Shown: piece after piece, positions 29,591-40,522 of the stretch
Position numbering within the stretch: the first letter of the stretch is position 1
Layout: the number at the start of each line of letters is the position of its first letter
NCBI RefSeq assembly: GCF_014636315.1
Contig: NZ_BMED01000007.1
Coordinates: forward strand, 1 to 64,000
Direction: 5' to 3'
From: Parundibacterium terreum
GTDB taxonomy: Bacteria > Pseudomonadota > Gammaproteobacteria > Burkholderiales > Burkholderiaceae_D
Length of the DNA: 64,000 nt
Position numbers and translations under genes: made by a program
The notes under the pieces: generated by a model
Told to the model about the DNA's origin: nothing
Seen by the model: only the letters and a program-made list of their open reading frames with translations
The model's database searches: none

Positions 29591-30457
29591 CTAATCGTTG
29601 CCGCGCGTATTGATCCAGTCTGCAGTCCACTCAGCCACTTGATCGCGCCATACCCGGCGTGAAAAAGTGTGGTCGGCGTCGGCTATTTCACGCCGGCTGA
29701 CGCGTGGTGATGCCAGCAATTTTTTCAGGCTGCCTGAGGATGCCGCGAGGTCCGAAAATTCTTGCGCGGTCAGGTCTTTGCCCGCCAGGATGATCAATAC
29801 CTTGCCGCTAAAGCCGGCCAGGCCGTCAATCATGCGCTGCGGCAGATCTGCATCCTGCGGCTCATCATCAATTGAGGCCGTGCGCTTGCCGCGTGCTGCC
29901 AGCTTGGAAACCAGGCCTGCAAATGAGGAGGCGGCAGAGGAAAAGCTGAAGCGGCCGGAAAATATCTTCTTCCACAAATCAGCCTGGAACAGGCGGTCGC
30001 GATAGTAGTGCTTCAGGTAGGCCTTGGCCATGCCTTGCTCGGTCCTGACCCAGGGGTTTAATAGCACCAGGCCGGTGACGCGCTCGTCCTGCGGCGCATA
30101 GAACAAGGATGCGGAAGCGCCATCGCACAAGCCCCATAAGGCGACCTCGCGCAGACCGGGTACGGCGGCAAAAAACTGGTCCAGCGCAGTCCGCACATCG
30201 TCATGGATGTCGTCGAAAGTACTTTGCGGGCCTTCGCTGTCACCCATGCCGCTGTAGTCGAAACGCATCATAGGGATGCCACGTTCGGCCAGATGTCTGG
30301 CCAGCAAGGTGAATTGACGGTGACTGCCGACGCGGTATTGAGGGCCGCCGACGATGACCAGCACGCCGCTGCTTCCTGCTTGTTCAGGCAAGCTCAGGAT
30401 GCCGTGCAGGCGGTTCGCCAGTGAATCGAAACTGAGTGCAGATTCGGTAAATTTCAT
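29591..30457 (-). CDS. Alpha/beta hydrolase 1, exosortase A system-associated
   Basis: 288 residues from ATG 30457 (MKFTESALSFDSLANRL). Alpha/beta-hydrolase core with VIVGGPQYRVGSHRQFTLLA, MMRFDYSGMGDSEG and a nucleophile-elbow-like WGLCDGASASLF; histidine in DADHTFSR near the end. Fits the hydrolase-1 family (TIGR03100 type) found only with the exosortase A/PEP-CTERM system. It starts one base after the hydrolase-2 stop, making an ACP-hydrolase2-hydrolase1 operon. Likely acts on an acyl or thioester intermediate of the associated small-molecule pathway (inference). Confidence 0.9.
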   Translation of the reverse strand: MKFTESALSFDSLANRLHGILSLPEQAGSSGVLVIVGGPQYRVGSHRQFTLLARHLAERGIPMMRFDYSGMGDSEGPQSTFDDIHDDVRTALDQFFAAVPGLREVALWGLCDGASASLFYAPQDERVTGLVLLNPWVRTEQGMAKAYLKHYYRDRLFQADLWKKIFSGRFSFSSAASSFAGLVSKLAARGKRTASIDDEPQDADLPQRMIDGLAGFSGKVLIILAGKDLTAQEFSDLAASSGSLKKLLASPRVSRREIADADHTFSRRVWRDQVAEWTADWINTRGND

Positions 30458-30458
30458 G

Positions 30459-31301
30459 TTATGGCCTCTGGAAGACATCCGTCGTGGCACTGATCCACTC
30501 GGGCGCATCGACCGTTTCCTGTGTTGTCCAGAATGCAGGACCATGCACAAAATCCACCCACAGGCTGGCGCCTTGCTGCATCCAGGCGTCGGCCAGTTTT
30601 TTTCTGGCAGGCGGCAGGGAGGGATTGCCCGGATTGACGTTTTCCAACCAATATACGGGACTACCTGGAGGAGTCCAGTCGGAAACCTCAAGTTTATCGA
30701 TGCCGGCGACCAGCTCCGGCGCGATATCGTAGCCGGCGATTTCTATTTTTTCTCCGGCCAGCAGGGCCTGGCGTATGCCCTGGGTGCCGCCATTTTTTTG
30801 CTCCGCACCGTTGATCATATCGTTGGCCAGCAACAGTCTGAAAAACTGGTTCAGGTATTGGCTGCCGTTGAAGACCGGCTGCCACAGAACGATTTTCTCG
30901 ATGTCGGAACGGGCGTCGCGCGCAAAATCCAGCGCCAGCAGCGCGCCCATGCGTACCCCCCACAGCGACAAGGGTTCCTCACCGCGCATCATCAGCCAGT
31001 GCTGCGCGCGATGCAGATCATCCTTCCAGATATCCCAGCGCGCATCGCCGAAATCACCGCTGCTGTCACCGCAGCCATACAGGTCGATTTGCAACACCGC
31101 ATAGCCAGCGGCAGCCAGCGCCCTGGACTGCAGGGCAGCCATGCGCCGCGATTTGTTCATCTCTTCGGCAAAGGGATGGACATGGATCACTGTGCCGCGG
31201 CAGGTGACGCCCGGCGGGCAGGGATGGAACAGGCAAAAACGCTGGTCTGCCCCCGCATCGAGGAAAAAGGCTTCAGCGCCGGTATCCCCCGGGGACCTCA
31301 T
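30459..31301 (-). CDS. Alpha/beta hydrolase 2, exosortase A system-associated
   Basis: 280 residues of the hydrolase-2 type (TIGR03101 type): VIHVHPFAEEMNKSRRM, LQIDLYGCGDSSGDFGDARW and LWGVRMGALLALDFA, where the usual nucleophile position reads R in GVRMG rather than Ser. The N-terminus overlaps the ACP gene by 4 bp and hydrolase 1 follows at once. The elbow lacking a clear serine suggests an atypical or non-classical activity. Confidence 0.9.
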   Translation of the reverse strand: MRSPGDTGAEAFFLDAGADQRFCLFHPCPPGVTCRGTVIHVHPFAEEMNKSRRMAALQSRALAAAGYAVLQIDLYGCGDSSGDFGDARWDIWKDDLHRAQHWLMMRGEEPLSLWGVRMGALLALDFARDARSDIEKIVLWQPVFNGSQYLNQFFRLLLANDMINGAEQKNGGTQGIRQALLAGEKIEIAGYDIAPELVAGIDKLEVSDWTPPGSPVYWLENVNPGNPSLPPARKKLADAWMQQGASLWVDFVHGPAFWTTQETVDAPEWISATTDVFQRP

Positions 31302-32094: not shown

Positions 32095-32733
32095 ATGACT
32101 ACTGAGCAACCACAACACGACAGCAACGAAAAACACCCGCCGCAAGGAATGGTCGAACAGATCACCCCTGCCGGTGAATCGCGTCGCCGCTTTACCAAGA
32201 CAGGTATTGCTGCATCGGGTGTGCTCGTTACTTTGGCTAGCCGTCCGGCACTGGGCTGTACTGTCGGGGTGTCACCTTCTGTCTATTGCTCAGGTAATGT
32301 CAGCGGTCACGGACCTAAAGATACGAGCCACCCAGGCTGCCCGCCGAATTACTGGTCAGGTAATTGTGATCACGGCTGGCCTGGCAGTTGCAAGACCGAT
32401 ACGAAGTTTGAAACCTGCTTTACGGGAACCAACAGCACGTCTCCTTGCTATGGCTGGACATTGATACAAATCCTGGATCCGCAAAATAATTACAAAAAAG
32501 ATAAAAAAGGTAAAATCACGAGGTTTGTGGATACCAAAGGCGGCCTTGCCAAATATCTGGTTGCCGCTTACTTGAATAATATCGCAGGGAAAGCACCTTT
32601 CGTTACCCGCGCAAACATTATTAAAATGTATACTGATGTTTATCAAGGTGGTGGCGGCTACATCCCAACCAAGGGCGCTGCAGCGTGGTCCCCTTCATAT
32701 ATTATGACTTACCTCGGCGGTACCTGGGATTAG
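32095..32733 (+). CDS. Tat-signal, cysteine-rich protein; candidate substrate of the HPr-rel-A cassette
   Basis: 212 residues from ATG 32095 (MTTEQPQHDS), preceded by GGAGAG at 6-base spacing; the ATG at 32083 has no such site. Residues 29-35 read SRRRFTK, matching the twin-arginine S-R-R-x-F-x-K motif, followed by a hydrophobic run (TGIAASGVLVTLASRPALG). Then seven cysteines lie within residues 55-118 (55, 65, 82, 91, 99, 108, 118), interspersed with Gly/Pro/His. The C-terminal ~90 residues are a basic globular-looking part. It sits 46 bp upstream of the PqqD-like, HprK-like and nucleotidyltransferase genes. Exported by Tat and perhaps modified by these enzymes; this is inference. No family recognised. 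Confidence 0.8.
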   Translation: MTTEQPQHDSNEKHPPQGMVEQITPAGESRRRFTKTGIAASGVLVTLASRPALGCTVGVSPSVYCSGNVSGHGPKDTSHPGCPPNYWSGNCDHGWPGSCKTDTKFETCFTGTNSTSPCYGWTLIQILDPQNNYKKDKKGKITRFVDTKGGLAKYLVAAYLNNIAGKAPFVTRANIIKMYTDVYQGGGGYIPTKGAAAWSPSYIMTYLGGTWD

Positions 32734-32779
32734 CCCTGTTTGCAGGATTCGCTATTTCTTTTAGGATGATGGTTCAAGC

Positions 32780-33049
32780 ATGAAATGGCGAGCAATAGCG
32801 GGCGGTTCCTCAATGCGAAACTGGGGAGATGAGTATGTTGTCTACAATCCCCTCTCAGGAGATTCTCATCTCCTGGGTCTGGCCGGCGGCCAGATTTTAT
32901 TAAAATTACAGCAGGCCCCTCTGGATTCCAAGGCCTTGATGGAACAACTGGCTACTGACTGGCAGTTCGATTCCGAACAAGACGCGATCGCGCAAATAGA
33001 TGCTTTGTTGACGGACCTGGGTGCATTGGCCTTGATTGAGCGTGCCTGA
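32780..33049 (+). CDS. PqqD-like protein of the HPr-rel-A system
   Basis: 89 residues. The middle matches the PqqD/RRE fold (WGDEYVVYNPLSGDSHLLG, then LMEQLATDWQFDSEQDAIAQ and IDALLTDLGALALI). PqqD-type domains bind leader regions of precursor peptides and present them to modifying enzymes. This small family (TIGR04353 type) travels with an HprK-related kinase. Its stop is immediately followed by the kinase TTG start, so translation is coupled. Confidence 0.88.
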   Translation: MKWRAIAGGSSMRNWGDEYVVYNPLSGDSHLLGLAGGQILLKLQQAPLDSKALMEQLATDWQFDSEQDAIAQIDALLTDLGALALIERA

Positions 33050-33964
33050 TTGACAGTTTCTTCCTTAAAATTATCCGAGTTAAAAGCCAGGCTAAAGAAG
33101 GGTTTGTTCCTTCGCATCGGTCCAGTGACCATGGCCATCCGCAGTACTGTTCCCAGTGTGGTAGAGGGCGTGCGGCTGGTTTATGCCGATTACCCGCTTG
33201 CCGATGATGATTTCGCCGATTTCCACGTCACGCTGAATCCTCCACGTAACCTGCGCAGATGGCTCAAGCCGCAGGCGATGTTTGAACTGGATGGCGTTTC
33301 TCCTTTCAAGCCTTTGCCGTTCAAGCAGGCATTTCCGATGCTGGAATGGGGAATGAACTGGTGTGTCTCCACCCACATGCATGGTTACCTGATGATCCAT
33401 GCTGCAGTGATGGAAAGAGACGGCCACGCGGCGATCTTGCCCGCGCCGCCCGGCTCAGGCAAAAGTACCTTGTGTGCGACACTGGTCCACAAGGGCTGGC
33501 GGCTGTTATCCGACGAACTGACGCTGATACGCCTCGCCGACGGTGAAATTATTCCTTTGCCTCGTCCCGTCAGCCTTAAAAATGCGTCCATCGACATTGT
33601 GCAGCAATATGTGCCGTCTGCAGTATTGAGCCCAAAAGTCTACGACACCCTGAAGGGGACCGTGGCATTGATGAAGCCGCCTGCTGACAGCCTTGCCCGG
33701 ATTGCGGAAACGGTAAAGCCTGCCTGGATCATTTTTCCCAAGTACGAGGCCGGTGCTGCGACGCGGCTGGAAGCCATACCGCAATCACGCGCCTTCATGC
33801 GGGTCGCTGACAATGCCTTCAATTACAGCCTGCTGGGTGCAAGAGGATTTGAGGCCCTGGCTGGGCTGATCGACAAATCCACGGCGTTTGACTTCAACTA
33901 CAGTTCCCTGGATGAGGCGATAGAAACCTTCGCCTCATTGCAAACTCCTGCCCAAGCACTATGA
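33050..33964 (+). CDS. HprK-related kinase A
   Basis: 304 residues from a TTG start abutting the previous stop. HPr kinase-like C-terminal domain: H117 region MIHAAVMERDG, Walker A A132-P-P-G-S-G-K-S-T140, and DELTLIRLADGEIIPLPRPV that would hold the second metal/phosphate-binding element. HPr kinases phosphorylate serine on HPr, but no HPr or PTS gene is here. Homologous kinases phosphorylate lasso-type peptides in some clusters, so phosphorylation of a protein or peptide substrate is likely. Overlaps the nucleotidyltransferase gene by 4 bp. Confidence 0.9.
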   Translation: MTVSSLKLSELKARLKKGLFLRIGPVTMAIRSTVPSVVEGVRLVYADYPLADDDFADFHVTLNPPRNLRRWLKPQAMFELDGVSPFKPLPFKQAFPMLEWGMNWCVSTHMHGYLMIHAAVMERDGHAAILPAPPGSGKSTLCATLVHKGWRLLSDELTLIRLADGEIIPLPRPVSLKNASIDIVQQYVPSAVLSPKVYDTLKGTVALMKPPADSLARIAETVKPAWIIFPKYEAGAATRLEAIPQSRAFMRVADNAFNYSLLGARGFEALAGLIDKSTAFDFNYSSLDEAIETFASLQTPAQAL

Positions 33965-35040
33965 GCCAGCGCGAACTTATCCTCCAGGCTTTCCGGGCAC
34001 CGGATACTCTGGCCAAGCTGGAGTTACGCCACTGGGACTTGCTGCTGCGGCAGGCGTGGAAATCCAACCTGATGTCCAGCTTGTATTTTTTGCTGGAAGA
34101 CAAGCAGTTGCTGGCAACGATACCCGAGCAGGCGCAACGGCACCTGCAGTGGTCTTATTATCTGGCGCAAAGGCACACCCAGGCAGTATTGTGGGAAATC
34201 GGTTTTATTCGCAAGGCGCTGGAAGATGCCGGGCTGAGAATGGTGGTGCTGAAAGGCGCGGCCTACGTGCTGGCAAAACTGCCGCATGCAAGGGGGCGCA
34301 TATTTTCCGACATCGATATCATCGTTCCCAAGGAAAGCCTTGGCAATGCCGAAGGCAGCCTGATGCTGCATGGCTGGCACGCCAGCCATCACGACGAATA
34401 CGACCAGCGCTACTATCGCGAATGGATGCATGAAATACCGCCGATGGAGCATGCCAAGCGGATGACGGTGATTGACGTGCATCACGCCATTTTGCCATCG
34501 ACTGCGGCCATCCATCCAGATTCCGCCAAGCTGCTGGCGGCAGCCAGACACGTGGGTGAAGTGGAGAATACTTTTGTATTTTCTCCTGCAGATATGGTGT
34601 TGCACAGCGCCGTGCATTTGTTCCATGACGGCGAATACGATAATGGCCTCAGGGACCTGGTGGATATACACGGCTTGCTGCAATACTATGGAGATTCGCC
34701 GGAATTCTGGACCACGCTGACATCCAGGGGGCGCGAACTGGAACTGACGCGACCTTTATTTTATGCACTGCGCTATTCTGCGCTGTTGCTGCATACGCCG
34801 ATCCCGGCGGAGGCTTTGCGCGACGCTGACATAGGGCGGCCCGGCAACCTGCTGCTGAAGTGCATGGACAAACTGTTTACGCGGGCTTTGCTGCCGGACC
34901 ACTTCAGTTGTAACGACAGATGGACGGCGACAGCCAGGCTGATGCTATACATGCGCGCCAACTGGCTGCGGATGCCACCCTTGCTATTGGCGCGACATTT
35001 ATTTCATAAGGCTTTTCTTTCTCCCAAGAAAGAAGATTGA
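33961..35040 (+). CDS. Nucleotidyltransferase family protein (NTP_transf_5)
   Basis: 359 residues, first four bases overlapping the kinase gene. The nucleotidyltransferase signature is visible: K98-G-A in MVVLKGAAYVLAK, and S116-D-I-D119 after GRIF. Family members near modified-peptide clusters are thought to add a nucleotide or sugar to a phosphorylated product. With the PqqD-like protein and the kinase it forms a three-gene cassette downstream of the Tat-signal protein. Chemical target unproven. Confidence 0.88.
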   Translation: MSQRELILQAFRAPDTLAKLELRHWDLLLRQAWKSNLMSSLYFLLEDKQLLATIPEQAQRHLQWSYYLAQRHTQAVLWEIGFIRKALEDAGLRMVVLKGAAYVLAKLPHARGRIFSDIDIIVPKESLGNAEGSLMLHGWHASHHDEYDQRYYREWMHEIPPMEHAKRMTVIDVHHAILPSTAAIHPDSAKLLAAARHVGEVENTFVFSPADMVLHSAVHLFHDGEYDNGLRDLVDIHGLLQYYGDSPEFWTTLTSRGRELELTRPLFYALRYSALLLHTPIPAEALRDADIGRPGNLLLKCMDKLFTRALLPDHFSCNDRWTATARLMLYMRANWLRMPPLLLARHLFHKAFLSPKKED

Positions 35041-35192: not shown

Positions 35193-36086
35193 ATGGCGAA
35201 TGCCGCTTTTTTAAGACGTTCCACAGTTCTGTGTGCGCTGCTCTGCATGATGTGGGCAGCATCTGCGGCCGAGTTGCCGACGCCGGTAGCGATCGATGTC
35301 AGCGGCGTACTGAGTGAGTCCATGACGCTCACTGCGGAAGCCAGAAAATATGAAAATGCGGAAGGTGTTGCGCGTGACTACGCGCGGGCCGTGGAATTGT
35401 ATTGCGCTGCCGCCAAGCTGGGCTATGCGGATGCGCAGTATGCGCTGGGCTGGATGTATGCCAACGGCCGCGGCGTCCCCAGGAGTGATGAAATTGCCGC
35501 TCAGCTGTTTCAGGCAGCGGCGGAGCAGGGGCACAGCCAGGCGAAGGAGCTTACGCAATTTGTTCCCTCCCAGACCTTGGCCTTGCCGGCTTGCCTGCTG
35601 GAGGAAAGGATAGTCATAGAACAGCCGCAGGAAGATGCGGCGCCCGGCAATTATCCAAAAGCGATTGCCAAGCTGGTGGACAAGATAGCGCCGCATTATC
35701 GTATCGATCCCAAGCTGGTAATGGCTGTTATATCGGTAGAGTCAGGCTTCAATATCAAGGCTATTTCTCCCAAGAACGCGCAAGGCCTGATGCAGCTGAC
35801 CCCGGAGACGGCGCAGCGCTTCCGGGTCAAGGATGCGTTTGATGCCGAAGATAATATCAAGGGCGGCATCGCCTACCTTCAATGGCTGCTGGCCTATTTC
35901 AAGGGCAATGTGCCGCTGGTTGCCGCTGCCTACAATGCCGGCGAAAGGGCAGTCGAGAAATATCGCGGCGTTCCGCCCTATCTGGAGACGATAGAGTACG
36001 TCAAGAAAATCAACAGCCGTTACGGAAAATCCCGCCACGCCTTCCAGCGCAGCATCACTGAAGCTTCCCCGGTCGTCATGCGCTGA
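35193..36086 (+). CDS. Lytic transglycosylase with Sel1-like repeats
   Basis: 297 residues with GCGAGGT ahead of the ATG. Signal peptide (LCALLCMMWAASAAE), Sel1-type repeats ~57-115 (AVELYCAAAKLGYADAQYAL; GWMYANGRGV), then an SLT domain with catalytic E183 in ISVESGFN, AQGLMQLTPETAQRF and AAAYNAGERAV. It cleaves peptidoglycan between MurNAc and GlcNAc to make 1,6-anhydro ends, perhaps to let an exported assembly pass the wall. It follows the HPr-rel-A cassette by ~150 bp and may be co-transcribed. Confidence 0.92.
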   Translation: MANAAFLRRSTVLCALLCMMWAASAAELPTPVAIDVSGVLSESMTLTAEARKYENAEGVARDYARAVELYCAAAKLGYADAQYALGWMYANGRGVPRSDEIAAQLFQAAAEQGHSQAKELTQFVPSQTLALPACLLEERIVIEQPQEDAAPGNYPKAIAKLVDKIAPHYRIDPKLVMAVISVESGFNIKAISPKNAQGLMQLTPETAQRFRVKDAFDAEDNIKGGIAYLQWLLAYFKGNVPLVAAAYNAGERAVEKYRGVPPYLETIEYVKKINSRYGKSRHAFQRSITEASPVVMR

Positions 36087-36193: not shown

Positions 36194-37492
36194 TTACAAA
36201 AAGCTGCTCGCGTTTTCCAGGTCCTTATGTGTGCTGCCCTGGTACAGCGCCGACACAAAGGTTTTCCAGTTGGTGTCCGGCGAATCCAGTGTAAAGCCGT
36301 AAAAGTCCTTGCCTATGCTGCGCACTGCTTCCACCTGTAGATAGGAGATATCGGCCTTGCCCAGCTTGACCATCACATTGCCCAGGATTTGCAAAGGGAT
36401 AGGTGTACTGATGCTTGCCAGGAATCCCGATGAAGAAACCTGCACCACATCGATATCGACTTTCTTCTCGGCGCCATCAAGTGCGCGGATGGTCAGTTGG
36501 CCCGGGCAGCGCATCGAGAAGCGTTCGTGCCGGCGTATCGGTGCATGCGGGCGATTGCTGGTCAGCTTAGGCAGCACCGACAGATACTCCGGGATATCGT
36601 AAATGGAATGCAACAACAGCTTCTGGCGCTCGCTCAGATTGGCAAAGACCCGGGTGCGGTGATTGAAAAAGTGGTGCAATAGTTCGGGCGTCAGCACCGG
36701 ATCGTTCGTCGTGTAATAGCGGCGTTGCGGCAGCTTGATGTTCGGCATCTTCAACTGCATGAAATAAAAATGCAGGTTGCGGTTGGGCGGGCGCGAGCCA
36801 TAATGCTTTTTCATGATCTCGGGAATGTACTTGAGATCCAGCCAGGCACCGACTGCCGGCGCACCATTCACAAAGTCATAGTTTTTGATTGGTTGTGCCG
36901 TCAGCCTTTTGAAGAACAGCAGCGACTCATACATCTCTATATGATTGGGATTGACCGCGATCACCAGATGGCGCGTATCGAAGAAGGTCGTGCAATATTC
37001 ATACATGAACTTCATCAACGGGAACAGGATGCTGCCGCCGGTCTTGCGGAACCTCTTGTGCACAGCCAGCGCGGATACTTCAGCGATGTTGCCTTCGTGC
37101 TTGCGTACCTCGGTCAGGTCGAACACATTCTGCAGTGGGAAGCCCATTGCATTTTCCCTGATCAGCGACAGCGTACCGACGACTTCGCCATTGAGTTTGG
37201 CGCACAAGGTAGTCGTGGTGGGCAGTGCGTGATAGGGAGTAACGCGCATACCGGAGGGATCCGGATTCATGAAGCCGCTGCCTACATAGGCGTCATGCAG
37301 CAAAGCGAAACAGGCTTCCAGCTCTTCCTGGGTTTCTGCGATTTTCAATACCAGATGCTGGTTCGGTGCCGGATCGCAGCGAGCAAATGAGCGATACAGC
37401 GAGAATTTTTTTGATTGCGGCAACGCACCAGACAGCTTTCTCAGCGCTGTGTGCATGTGCTTTCTAAGGCCTGATATGCCCTTCTTTATCAC
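36194..37492 (-). CDS. FeeM-like N-acyl amino acid synthase with PilZ tail, copy 1
   Basis: 432 residues from GTG 37492, chosen because GAGGT lies 8 bases upstream; a TTG at 37507 is also possible. N-terminal ~260 residues have the acyltransferase fold of the PEP-CTERM/exosortase-associated family (TIGR03694 type): VLKIAETQEELEACFALLHD, EGNIAEVSALAVHKRFRKTG, YEYCTTFFDTRHLVIAVNP. FeeM-type enzymes join an ACP-borne long-chain acyl group to an amino acid. The C-terminal ~100 residues are PilZ-like (RRHERFSMRC, then QVSSSGFLA). Paralogous to the next gene. The acyl donor is probably the ACP encoded at 31.3 kb (inference). Confidence 0.88.
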   Translation of the reverse strand: MIKKGISGLRKHMHTALRKLSGALPQSKKFSLYRSFARCDPAPNQHLVLKIAETQEELEACFALLHDAYVGSGFMNPDPSGMRVTPYHALPTTTTLCAKLNGEVVGTLSLIRENAMGFPLQNVFDLTEVRKHEGNIAEVSALAVHKRFRKTGGSILFPLMKFMYEYCTTFFDTRHLVIAVNPNHIEMYESLLFFKRLTAQPIKNYDFVNGAPAVGAWLDLKYIPEIMKKHYGSRPPNRNLHFYFMQLKMPNIKLPQRRYYTTNDPVLTPELLHHFFNHRTRVFANLSERQKLLLHSIYDIPEYLSVLPKLTSNRPHAPIRRHERFSMRCPGQLTIRALDGAEKKVDIDVVQVSSSGFLASISTPIPLQILGNVMVKLGKADISYLQVEAVRSIGKDFYGFTLDSPDTNWKTFVSALYQGSTHKDLENASSFL

Positions 37493-37724
37493 TAGATTCA
37501 ACCTCAATAATGGCTATTCAGGTCCGACAAAAAAAGCGCCGGTAATTAGCCTGGAACTGCGAAAAAAACCTGCCCTCTTGCTGGATGCAACGCACCGGAT
37601 TTGCAGCCGGCCAGCTGGTGAAGGCAGAATTTTGGTTCGCCATTATTGCATGTAAATTCTGGAGTTGACGTTGTCAGTCGGGGAAATGGCTCGCAACAAA
37701 GTGCAAAGTCTGTAACAAGTTTCC

Positions 37725-39044
37725 CTAGGCCAATTTAATGTCTGCGACAAAGCGGCTCGGTTCATTCAGGTCCCTATGGGTTGTCCCCGAGTAGATCGCA
37801 TTCACAAAAGTTCTCCAGATCGCATCGGCCTGGCCTAAATGGAAACCGTAAAAACCTTTTCCTATGTCACGCACCGCCTCTACTTGCAGATGAGAAACTT
37901 CTGTTTTTCCCAGCCATACAGTCGCCTTCAGCGTTACCTGCATCGGTATCGGTTTCAATGCACGCGCCTGAAAACCTTCCAGCGAGACTTCGACAACATC
38001 GATGTCTATGTTTTCCTGGCCGTCGTTGACGATCTCTACTGTCACCTGGCCGGGACATTTCATCGAGTAACGCTCGTGCCTGCGCACATGTACGTCGAGA
38101 CTTCTGGTGGTCAATGGCGGCAATACCGGAATGTACTCAACAATATCGTAGATAGTGTGCAGTAACACTTTCTCGCGCTCGCTCAGATTGGCAAAGCCGT
38201 GAGTGCGCTTATTGAAGAAATGGTCCAGCAATTCCGGAGTCAATACCGGATCATTGGTCGTATAGTAGCGCCGTTCCGGCAGCTTGATATTGGCGAGCTT
38301 CACTTGCGTGAAATAGGCGTACAGATTGCGCTGCGGCGGCTTGGACGCATAATGTTTTTTCATGATCTCGGGGGCGAACTTCAAGTCCAGCCAGGCACCT
38401 ACTGCCGGTGCACCGTTGACGAAATCATAGTTGTCCACCGGGGTGGCAGTCAGTCGCTTGAAGAACAGCAGCGACTCATACATCTCGATATGATAGGGAT
38501 TGACCGCGATCACCAGATGGCGCGTATCAAAGAAGGTCGTGCAATATTCATACATGAACTTCATCAGCGGGAATAGGATGCTGCCGCCGGTCTTGCGGAA
38601 CTTGCGATGCACAGCCAATGCCGATACTTCCGCGATATTGCCCTCATGCTTGCGCACATCGGTCAGGTCGAAAATTTTTTGCAGTGGGAAGCCCAGCGCG
38701 CTTTCGCGTATCAGCGATAAAGTGCCGACGACTTGCCCGTCATACTTGGCGCACAGCGTGGTGGTGGTGGGAAGCGCATGGTACAGGGTGACCCGCATGC
38801 CGGACGGATCCGGTTTCATGAAGCCGCTACCGACGTAGGCATCATGCAGCAGCGCGAAGCAGGCTTCCAGTTCTTCCTGGGTTTCTGCGATCTTCAGTAT
38901 CAGGCGTTCATTCGGTTCTGGATTGCATTCGACGAAGGAACGATACACGGCAAACTTACCGCTCTTTGGCAAGAAGCTGAAGGCTTTTCTCAATGTCTGA
39001 TGCAGCAGCTTGCGAGCGTCTTTTATTAGTCGATTGTTCGCCAT
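37725..39044 (-). CDS. FeeM-like N-acyl amino acid synthase with PilZ tail, copy 2
   Basis: 439 residues from ATG 39044 (MANNRLIKDARKLLHQTL). Same design as copy 1: synthase part ~45-290 (AETQEELEACFALLHDAYVG; FDTRHLVIAVNPYHIEMYES) and a PilZ-like tail (VRRHERYSMKCPGQVTVEIV, EVSLEGFQARAL). The synthase halves of the two genes are much more alike, also at the DNA level, than the PilZ halves. Sits downstream of the PEP-CTERM gene and just upstream of copy 1 on the same strand, a tandem duplication. May differ in acyl or amino acid preference or in c-di-GMP response. Confidence 0.88.
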   Translation of the reverse strand: MANNRLIKDARKLLHQTLRKAFSFLPKSGKFAVYRSFVECNPEPNERLILKIAETQEELEACFALLHDAYVGSGFMKPDPSGMRVTLYHALPTTTTLCAKYDGQVVGTLSLIRESALGFPLQKIFDLTDVRKHEGNIAEVSALAVHRKFRKTGGSILFPLMKFMYEYCTTFFDTRHLVIAVNPYHIEMYESLLFFKRLTATPVDNYDFVNGAPAVGAWLDLKFAPEIMKKHYASKPPQRNLYAYFTQVKLANIKLPERRYYTTNDPVLTPELLDHFFNKRTHGFANLSEREKVLLHTIYDIVEYIPVLPPLTTRSLDVHVRRHERYSMKCPGQVTVEIVNDGQENIDIDVVEVSLEGFQARALKPIPMQVTLKATVWLGKTEVSHLQVEAVRDIGKGFYGFHLGQADAIWRTFVNAIYSGTTHRDLNEPSRFVADIKLA

Positions 39045-39496: not shown

Positions 39497-40258
39497 TTAT
39501 TTTGCAGCGTTGCGACGACGCAGTACGCCAGCAGCCAGCATGCCCAGGCCGATCAAAGCCATGGAGCCTGGTTCAGGGATTGCACTACCGTTGAATGTGC
39601 CGGAACCTGTCGCAAACAAGATGGAATTGGTTGGGAAGGTTGTGAAGCTGTTGGTGAAGGAGAAGTCCGAACCGTCAGCTTGAGTATTTGTATTCAAATA
39701 GCTGTCAGCCAGGCCGCCAGTAACGTCCCATTGACCATTGCCCAGCAGACCGCCGACCAATTTGCTACCAGCCAGGCTTGTGAAATTAATACCTGTCAGG
39801 CTGGTGCCATTGATGTTGTGACCTGCCAATTGCAACCACAGTACGCCGTTAGTTGTATTTGCATCATTCAGGCCGAGCGCGCCAGCTGCAGTCGCGTCTT
39901 TCGATACGTCTACATAGATGGAGATAATGCCGCCTGTGTAGAAAATAGTTTGGCCAGTGCCAGCAGGGGTTGGAACTGTACCGGAGCTAACTGGTGTGTA
40001 GCCGGAATACTTGAATGTCAGTTCGCAGCCTGGGCAGAAAGTGGAATCAGTATTCAGCTTGGTGATGATACCGTAGCCGCTCAGTTCGCCAGTGCTAGGA
40101 TTGATCGATTGTGTGATCGTGTCTGTAGTGCCAGACAGGTTCAATGGTGCGTCCGGATCAAAAATAACGCCGCCGACGTTGATAGGTGTTGCGTGTACGG
40201 AGCCAACCAGAGCCATCGCAGCTGCAGCACCGAACATTGCTTTTTTCAGAAAGTTCAT
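39497..40258 (-). CDS. PEP-CTERM sorting-signal protein
   Basis: 253 residues from ATG 40258 (MNFLKKAMFGAAAAMALVG), with GGAG upstream. Signal peptide, then a Thr/Ser/Asn/Gly-rich exported body with a single pair of cysteines (TFCPGCEL), and a C-terminal sorting tripartite signal: IPEPGSMAL, a hydrophobic helix, and R-R-R-N-A-A-K. Exosortase A cleaves such signals and attaches or releases the protein at the cell envelope or matrix. The gene is monocistronic with its own terminator and a sigma54-type promoter, consistent with PrsK/PrsR control from the 44-47 kb operon. Confidence 0.95.
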   Translation of the reverse strand: MNFLKKAMFGAAAAMALVGSVHATPINVGGVIFDPDAPLNLSGTTDTITQSINPSTGELSGYGIITKLNTDSTFCPGCELTFKYSGYTPVSSGTVPTPAGTGQTIFYTGGIISIYVDVSKDATAAGALGLNDANTTNGVLWLQLAGHNINGTSLTGINFTSLAGSKLVGGLLGNGQWDVTGGLADSYLNTNTQADGSDFSFTNSFTTFPTNSILFATGSGTFNGSAIPEPGSMALIGLGMLAAGVLRRRNAAK

Positions 40259-40327
40259 TTTGTTTTCTCCAAGGAGTAAATTTTGTTTCGCTTTAGACGA
40301 CTTCGACAGTCTCTTGCCTTGGTATAA

Positions 40328-40344
40328 AGCATGTAGCGTGCCAG
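40328..40344 (-). promoter_or_regulatory. Sigma54-type promoter of the PEP-CTERM gene
   Basis: On the minus strand the sequence reads ctggcacgctacatgct, giving TGGCACG and TGC with GG and GC exactly 10 bases apart. Two of the 17 consensus positions mismatch. The start codon is ~70 bp further on. PrsR, encoded in this window, is a sigma54-dependent activator. Confidence 0.72.
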
Positions 40345-40393
40345 GAAATGTTGTTGCGGTGTAAGTCGTTGAAAACAAACAATAAATTAAAAA

Positions 40394-40522
40394 TTTTCCC
40401 AGGAAAAACAAGTTGGTTGTGGCGAAATATTTTGATCAGTGTAAAAAATATCGACAGTTAAAAATGGCCTTTCTCATAGTGCGCTTCTGGTAATTCTTAC
40501 AGTTCTGAAAAGAAAATTTTCT
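40394..40522 (-). promoter_or_regulatory. Inverted repeats upstream of the sigma54 promoter, possible PrsR sites
   Basis: Two short palindromes, ttttcccaggaaaa (40394-40407) and agaaaattttct (40511-40522), lie ~50 and ~170 bp upstream of the -24 element. Distances suit an enhancer-binding protein; binding by PrsR is speculative because the PEP-CTERM box sequence cannot be checked here. Confidence 0.3.

Follow-up and report, generated by a model that had tools for sequence, protein, structure and literature searches.

What does an HprK-related kinase act on when its gene stands in a row with those of a PqqD-like protein, a nucleotidyltransferase-like protein and an exported protein? This question is raised by four consecutive genes on the forward strand (32095-35040) of a 64,000-nucleotide stretch of Parundibacterium terreum DNA (contig NZ_BMED01000007.1, positions 1 to 64,000; hereafter the window). 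They encode a protein with a twin-arginine translocation (Tat) signal, here called P0001, a PqqD-like recognition element of the kind found in pathways for ribosomally synthesized and post-translationally modified peptides (RiPPs), an HprK-related kinase and an NTP_transf_5 protein. We consider it moderately likely that these genes together make up a unit for protein modification, with the twin-arginine signal doubling as a RiPP-type leader and a serine in the tail behind it being modified before export. An orphan kinase system would thereby gain a family of candidate substrates in which candidate serines can be named.

The four-gene cassette

The cassette comprises the following features, each given with its basis (ORF, open reading frame; pLDDT, predicted local distance difference test score; RRE, RiPP recognition element).

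32095..32733, + strand: Tat-signal protein P0001 (212 aa), probable substrate; ORF, family survey, alignment
32179..32256, + strand: twin-arginine signal region of P0001, residues 29-54 (SRRRFTK to ALG), probable leader; signal-profile score
32272..32298, + strand: SPSVYCSGN, residues 60-68 of P0001, with S62 and S66, probable acceptor site; invariance, low pLDDT
32332..32730, + strand: predicted folded helical mature domain of P0001, residues 80-212; block pLDDT 79-97
32780..33049, + strand: PqqD_rel_X, RRE; TIGR04353, profile and model likeness to lasso-peptide RREs
33050..33964, + strand: HprK-related kinase A, TTG start; TIGR04352, invariant catalytic residues
33446..33472, + strand: kinase P-loop region (PGSGKSTL); sequence, kinase alignment
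33961..35040, + strand: NTP_transf_5 nucleotidyltransferase-like protein; PF14907, kept residues

A preliminary description of this DNA had pointed to the four-gene row, to the SRRRFTK motif and seven cysteines in residues 55-118 of the first protein, to an intact kinase P-loop, to touching or overlapping junctions among the last three genes, to a surrounding exosortase-A region and to the lack of a lasso cyclase. All of these observations were borne out. The ORFs are present, with TIGR04353, TIGR04352 and PF14907 over their cut-offs; SRRRFTK occupies residues 29-35, and the cysteines lie at 55, 65, 82, 91, 99, 108 and 118. The P-loop reads PGSGKSTL and contains K138, invariant in 21 kinases. 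The Tat and PqqD genes are separated by a 46-base spacer read from the sequence, the TTG start of the kinase abuts the PqqD stop, and the start of the NTP transferase overlaps the kinase stop (ATGA). Six exosortase-associated models score over cut-off in the window, and neither a macrolactam cyclase nor a leader protease B2 was matched among the 25 window ORFs scanned.

Association of the Tat-signal protein with the kinase

Among 145 sampled genomes of the family, 39 were kinase-positive over cut-off and 38 of these contained a P0001 homologue (E up to 0.001). No genome had a homologue without the kinase (Fisher p 3e-34, the genomes not being independent). In the remaining kinase genome (G119), the gene immediately preceding PqqD encodes a Tat-signal protein of greater divergence, which brings the pairing to 39/39. 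At the level of the phylum, 61 of 398 sampled genomes passed the kinase cut-off; setting aside two family genomes and two fragments of the kinase gene (G316 and G332) left 57 loci (L127-L183), and three loci with a kinase below cut-off (L184-L186) were kept out of the counts. In 49 of the 57 loci, a Tat-signal gene was located upstream of the kinase with a PqqD-sized gap between them (script and ORF reading). A search for PqqD in the other eight genomes revealed six in which PqqD has a Tat-signal gene as neighbor, the pair being situated in the kinase locus (G328), divergent beside the kinase (G281) or elsewhere (G213, G166, G269 and G411), for a total of 55/57. Kinase scoring covered at most 15 candidates per family genome and at most six per phylum genome, so kinase-negative genomes may hide a missed kinase.

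We additionally scanned contigs with a kinase alignment, which yielded at least 69 named kinase loci. The genera among the matches listed include Gallionella, Noviherbaspirillum, Massilia, Duganella, Thiobacillus and Methylomonas as well as Thioalkalivibrio, Ectothiorhodospira, Alteromonas, Paraglaciecola and Rheinheimera. A complete Tat-signal gene was found upstream in 62 of these 69 listed loci. In 42 of those 62, a simple pattern scan picked out a PqqD-like ORF lying between the Tat gene and the kinase. Two further Tat gene copies are cut by the contig end (L233, L226), two contigs end before the Tat position (L227, L241), and three listed loci (L209, L212, L243) have no Tat gene at the usual upstream place. 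The L209 genome harbors another PqqD gene, preceded by a Tat-signal gene. Absence of the Tat protein from kinase genomes had been named beforehand as the check on the proposed link, and the survey, with 39/39 in the family and 55/57 in the phylum, came out in its favor. The association between Tat protein and kinase is strongly supported and far beyond chance.

Three individual loci are of separate interest. G328 (L257, L264) contains two separate Tat-PqqD pairs, of which one immediately precedes the kinase, and a kinase may perhaps serve several clients. In L243, from a Phycisphaeraceae metagenome-assembled genome, PqqD and kinase are present on a planctomycete contig, and a transposase-looking ORF upstream of 6001 takes the usual Tat position (by eye). 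Directly upstream of the sub-cut-off kinase of L186 (G461) lies a 69-aa twin-arginine-like ORF, which hints that the pairing extends beyond TIGR04352.

Invariant serines in a tail predicted to be flexible

The signal of P0001 consists of the twin-arginine motif, an uncharged h-region and an AxA-like end (SRRRFTK...TLASRPALG); cleavage after ALG was read from the sequence and not taken from a prediction program. P0001 matched no Pfam or NCBIfam model at E up to 1, including the Tat models TIGR01409 and PF10518. It does not have the marks of a PEP-CTERM/exosortase substrate, ending in ...IMTYLGGTWD without a C-terminal PEP motif, transmembrane segment or basic end.

We aligned 39 proteins of the same kind (20-36% identity to P0001), picked by eye as resembling class 1 of the grouping given below. 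The sole invariant columns were R31 of the twin-arginine motif, S62 and S66. In the AlphaFold2 model of P0001 (mean pLDDT 75.9), a confident, mostly helical domain begins at residue ~80. The stretch with S62 and S66, located between the signal and this domain, is predicted to be disordered (pLDDT near 50), with S62-S66 modelled as a short low-confidence helix. The mature domain found no fold match in the PDB (Foldseek, best E 2.1) and no match up to E 1 in a profile search against PDB sequences. Taken from conservation and model, the acceptor is probably S62 or S66 in the flexible tail behind the signal. A likeness between some sites of class 1, CSISGFMS for example, and the sequence around HPr Ser46 is a lead and no test.

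The seven cysteines were considered as the key feature of P0001 and rejected. This set is peculiar to P0001 and not conserved among the 39 relatives, and the two Cys columns that the relatives keep (38/39 and 37/39) correspond to G58 and H79 in P0001.

A shared signal in front of different cargo

A total of 150 Tat proteins was collected, of which 146 were distinct after removal of four repeats. Sorted by sequence pattern, they comprise 102 proteins with S-x3-S anywhere in residues 41-110 (class 1, including P0001), 30 with a [ST]C[WFY]xS[FLV] end (class 2), nine short proteins (class 3) and five others, classes 2 and 3 having been selected by their own C-terminal motif. Class 1 is heterogeneous; GYWKNH-like motifs are common in it, and it holds some members resembling other kinds (L152, L170, L182, L229, L239, L244, L249 and L255). 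The class 3 proteins, which we take to be sphingomonad-like, share a conserved FTC[FY]ASLQ end. Ten diverse Tat partners gave no match over cut-off in Pfam or NCBIfam. Judging by these sequences, the mature parts appear to be of several unrelated-looking kinds, with the signal shared across the cargo.

A profile of the cassette signals gave 42.3 bits for the P0001 signal versus at most 16.2 bits for 14 ordinary Tat signals of the same genome (a fifteenth, L285, was dropped for want of an anchor). Of the 39 family signals, which ranged from 14.5 to 51.7 bits, 38 outscored the best of these ordinary signals. The profile was built from signals outside the family survey, yet includes other Oxalobacteraceae species of the named set. 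A [TS][LIVM]x[SRPTN] motif was found in 117/146 cassette signals versus 1/14 ordinary Tat signals of the genome. Since the profile shares Oxalobacteraceae with the family and the motif was chosen after viewing the signals, these comparisons are support and no independent test.

Soon after the signal, 83 of the 102 class-1 proteins carry C-x2-5-S-x3-S, versus a mean of 10.3 for shuffled sequences, a comparison favored by the choice of the class through S-x3-S in a wider region. P0001 is among the 19 class-1 proteins without the full pattern: the usual Cys is gone and both serines are kept. An early serine is likewise conserved in class 2 (26/30, best column) and class 3 (9/9).

The three enzymes

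The PqqD-like protein scores 60.1 bits with PqqD_rel_X (TIGR04353; cut-off 35). A profile of 38 such proteins matches the lasso-peptide RREs TfuB1 (E 4.6e-5) and TbiB1 (E 2.6e-4). The structure model (pLDDT 94) likewise resembles TbiB1 (TM 0.81, probability 1.00, Foldseek E 0.006), the next matches being RRE domains of other RiPP enzymes and PqqD. As modelled, its fold is that of a lasso-type RRE.

The kinase scores 407.3 bits with HprK_rel_A (TIGR04352; cut-off 200), and its residues H117, K138, D155 and E156 are invariant in 21 aligned kinases. Its profile matches HPr kinase/phosphorylase (HprK) in the PDB (E 0.0012) with the His, P-loop Lys and Asp aligned. The two differ in that this weak similarity spans ~60 residues, a Glu takes the place of the second Asp, and the cassette has no HPr gene. 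For lasso kinases, the review PMC9266682 gives the motif as His-Lys-Asp-Asp. The fourth protein (NTP_transf_5, PF14907; 184.3 bits, cut-off 31.2) finds no convincing relative in the PDB (best E 0.12); its K98, G99, D117, D119 and D172 are kept in at least 152 of 153 sequences. A relative is present in 152 of the 164 loci examined, a list in which four genomes occur twice and several of the 12 loci lacking the gene end at a contig end. The conserved residues of both enzymes fit phosphorylation, which would be followed by nucleotidyl or sugar transfer.

Relation to known systems

We found no published account of the HPr-rel-A cassette or of its Tat-signal pairing in the open-licence literature. 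The NCBIfam models of HPr-rel-A (TIGR04352/TIGR04353), to which the window kinase and PqqD protein belong with scores over cut-off, name a kinase and a PqqD-type chaperone only, and no Tat partner. The preliminary description had cited paeninodin as an example. The closest known system is now the family of linear polyphosphorylated peptides (LPPs), not paeninodin alone; it is represented by lpp of Paenibacillus alginolyticus DSM5050 (PMC13381572, Nat Commun 2026).

According to that paper, LPP systems occur in capsule loci and comprise an RRE, an HprK-like kinase, an NTP transferase, an exporter and a protease that is signal-peptidase-like. The kinase phosphorylates core Ser3, and precursor without phosphate is processed inefficiently (PMC13381572). 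A discrete RRE is common to both systems, as is an HprK-like kinase (the cassette kinase judged by TIGR04352 and its HprK match). Both also have an NTP transferase, the cassette protein being a PF14907 member and a putative counterpart of LppN. LPP precursors of 35-200 aa with a conserved N-terminus and highly variable C-terminus (PMC13381572) further resemble the cassette proteins, and both systems share polysaccharide loci, the lack of a macrolactam cyclase and a serine, modified in LPP and proposed here, close behind the leader. In contrast, LPP systems, known mainly from Bacillota, have a YxxPxVL motif in the leader and encode a SipW-like peptidase and an MsbA-like exporter of their own (PMC13381572). 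The cassette leader is a Tat signal, its mature part can be a folded domain, and P0001 contains neither [YW]xxP nor YxxPxVL and has no Tyr or Trp before the cleavage site. An NCBIfam scan of 25 window ORFs found neither a SipW-like signal peptidase nor an MsbA-like exporter.

In the pseudomycoidin pathway, as the review PMC9266682 describes it, PsmK phosphorylates the C-terminal serine and PsmN installs hexoses on that serine, a role of host enzymes not being excluded. Paeninodin and pseudomycoidin share with the cassette an HprK-like kinase, nucleotidyltransferase-like tailoring on serine and, in the RRE, a lasso-type fold (TbiB1/TfuB1-like), whereas the cassette cargo is a secreted protein and no threaded peptide. 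By analogy, the cassette is best read as a Pseudomonadota counterpart of LPP.

A proposed route and its alternatives

The preliminary description had also proposed that the cassette modifies the Tat protein or a peptide from it, an interpretation that is supported in part. Pairing, invariant serines, RRE fold and catalytic residues fit this proposal, and the part that gave weight to the seven cysteines falls away. Cassette, Tat pairing, RRE fold, catalytic residues, invariant serines, signal motif and XrtA co-occurrence (see below) were computed directly. In the route that we propose, the PqqD-like RRE would, in the cytoplasm, bind the precursor at its signal region and present the flexible tail to the kinase, which would phosphorylate the conserved serine, here S62 or S66. 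The NTP_transf_5 protein may then add a nucleotide or sugar to the serine phosphate, by analogy with PsmN. The Tat pathway would export the modified protein and signal peptidase remove the leader, the two replacing the exporter and protease of LPP. Outside the cell, the decorated N-terminal tail may serve the exosortase-A/exopolysaccharide layer in many hosts. Modification is placed before export because the Tat pathway carries folded proteins, and on the premise that the enzymes are cytoplasmic. RiPP-style leader recognition joined to the Tat pathway suggests that a whole protein could be decorated in the cytoplasm and then exported. For the wider form of this proposal, we see the chances as evenly balanced: widespread Pseudomonadota Tat proteins would be phosphorylated on a tail serine, then nucleotidylated or glycosylated, before export, with one ~25-residue signal addressing both modifying enzymes and translocon and unrelated cargo behind it.

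Several observations weigh against this route. No Tat partner was found in two of the 57 phylum genomes (G225 and G357) or for two of the 69 named loci listed (L212, L243). Lasso and LPP RREs read a [YW]xxP motif; tried here as docking motif, it was rejected, with occurrences in only 4 of 146 N-terminal regions. The invariant E156 of the kinase stands where HprK has the second Asp of its DD. Deletion of lppN brought no change in the LPP test system (PMC13381572), which makes the nucleotide or sugar step the weaker analogy. Finally, a C-terminal serine is also conserved in classes 2 and 3, so that no single acceptor rule fits every class.

In an alternative that we hold to be unlikely, the enzymes and substrate are the same and the acceptor is another serine, namely that of the C-terminal [ST]C[WFY]xS[FLV] motif in classes 2 and 3 and of Cys-x2-3-Ser in class 1. 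The rule would be Cys-x-x-Ser rather than nearness to the cleavage site, comparable to the C-terminal serine of paeninodin-type peptides, and lasso kinases do target a C-terminal Ser (PMC9266682). A CW-x-S end is present in 30/30 class 2 proteins and a like motif in 9/9 of class 3, both classes having been selected by that motif, and the aligned early Ser reaches only 26/30 in class 2. P0001, however, has no such C-terminal motif, and S62 and S66 are kept in 39/39 class-1-like proteins while P0001 lost the neighbouring Cys.

Quite improbable, in our estimate, is that the Tat protein is merely an exported partner in an exopolysaccharide pathway, with kinase and NTP transferase acting on a small precursor or sugar. 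Co-occurrence alone cannot separate a substrate from a partner, and the locus lies in an exosortase-A/exopolysaccharide region. A leader-binding RRE, on the other hand, must have a peptide to bind, and the cassettes read showed no further short gene that is conserved; six of the eight genomes that seemingly lacked a Tat gene by the kinase have one beside PqqD; and invariant serines together with a system-specific signal motif fit a client. We give very little credence to phosphorylation as an export gate without lasting decoration, whereby the RRE would cover the Tat signal until kinase and NTP transferase had acted. The conserved motif does lie in the signal h-region, which the Tat receptor would also have to read, and the inefficient processing of unphosphorylated LPP precursor (PMC13381572) points the same way, but gating alone leaves unexplained the NTP transferase found in 152/164 loci.

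Exosortase-A setting and neighboring genes

The exosortase-A setting of the window rests on TIGR03100, TIGR03101, TIGR03013, TIGR02916, TIGR03098 and TIGR03099, all over cut-off in the following context genes.

29591..31301, - strand: exosortase-A associated hydrolases 1 and 2; TIGR03100, TIGR03101
42578..46115, + strand: XrtA-system glycosyltransferase and histidine kinase PrsK; TIGR03013 (EpsB_2), TIGR02916
47521..50363, + strand: exosortase-A associated acyl-CoA ligase and decarboxylase; TIGR03098, TIGR03099

The exosortase gene itself is located outside the window on the same contig (78148-78921), ~44 kb from the kinase. XrtA scored over cut-off in 37/39 kinase genomes versus 14/106 other family genomes (Fisher p 1.7e-20, genomes not independent); of the two exceptions, G036 has a partial gene and in G091 none was found. 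Some named cassettes seem to lie outside polysaccharide loci (neighbors of eight loci, by eye). The tie between the decorated protein and the exopolysaccharide layer, which would rest on this co-occurrence, is the weakest step of the route; if it holds, the cassette may bring an additional chemical step into exosortase-A exopolysaccharide layers.

Downstream on the - strand, a PEP-CTERM protein (39497-40411) resembles flocculation-associated PepA (55.7 bits, cut-off 80). Two similar adjoining proteins of 437 and 439 aa (36194-37507 and 37725-39044, - strand) form an apparent tandem duplicate with a partial match to NF011425 only, far under the cut-off of that model. Directly 3' of the cassette, 35193-36086 encodes a protein with Sel1 repeats and an SLT transglycosylase domain.

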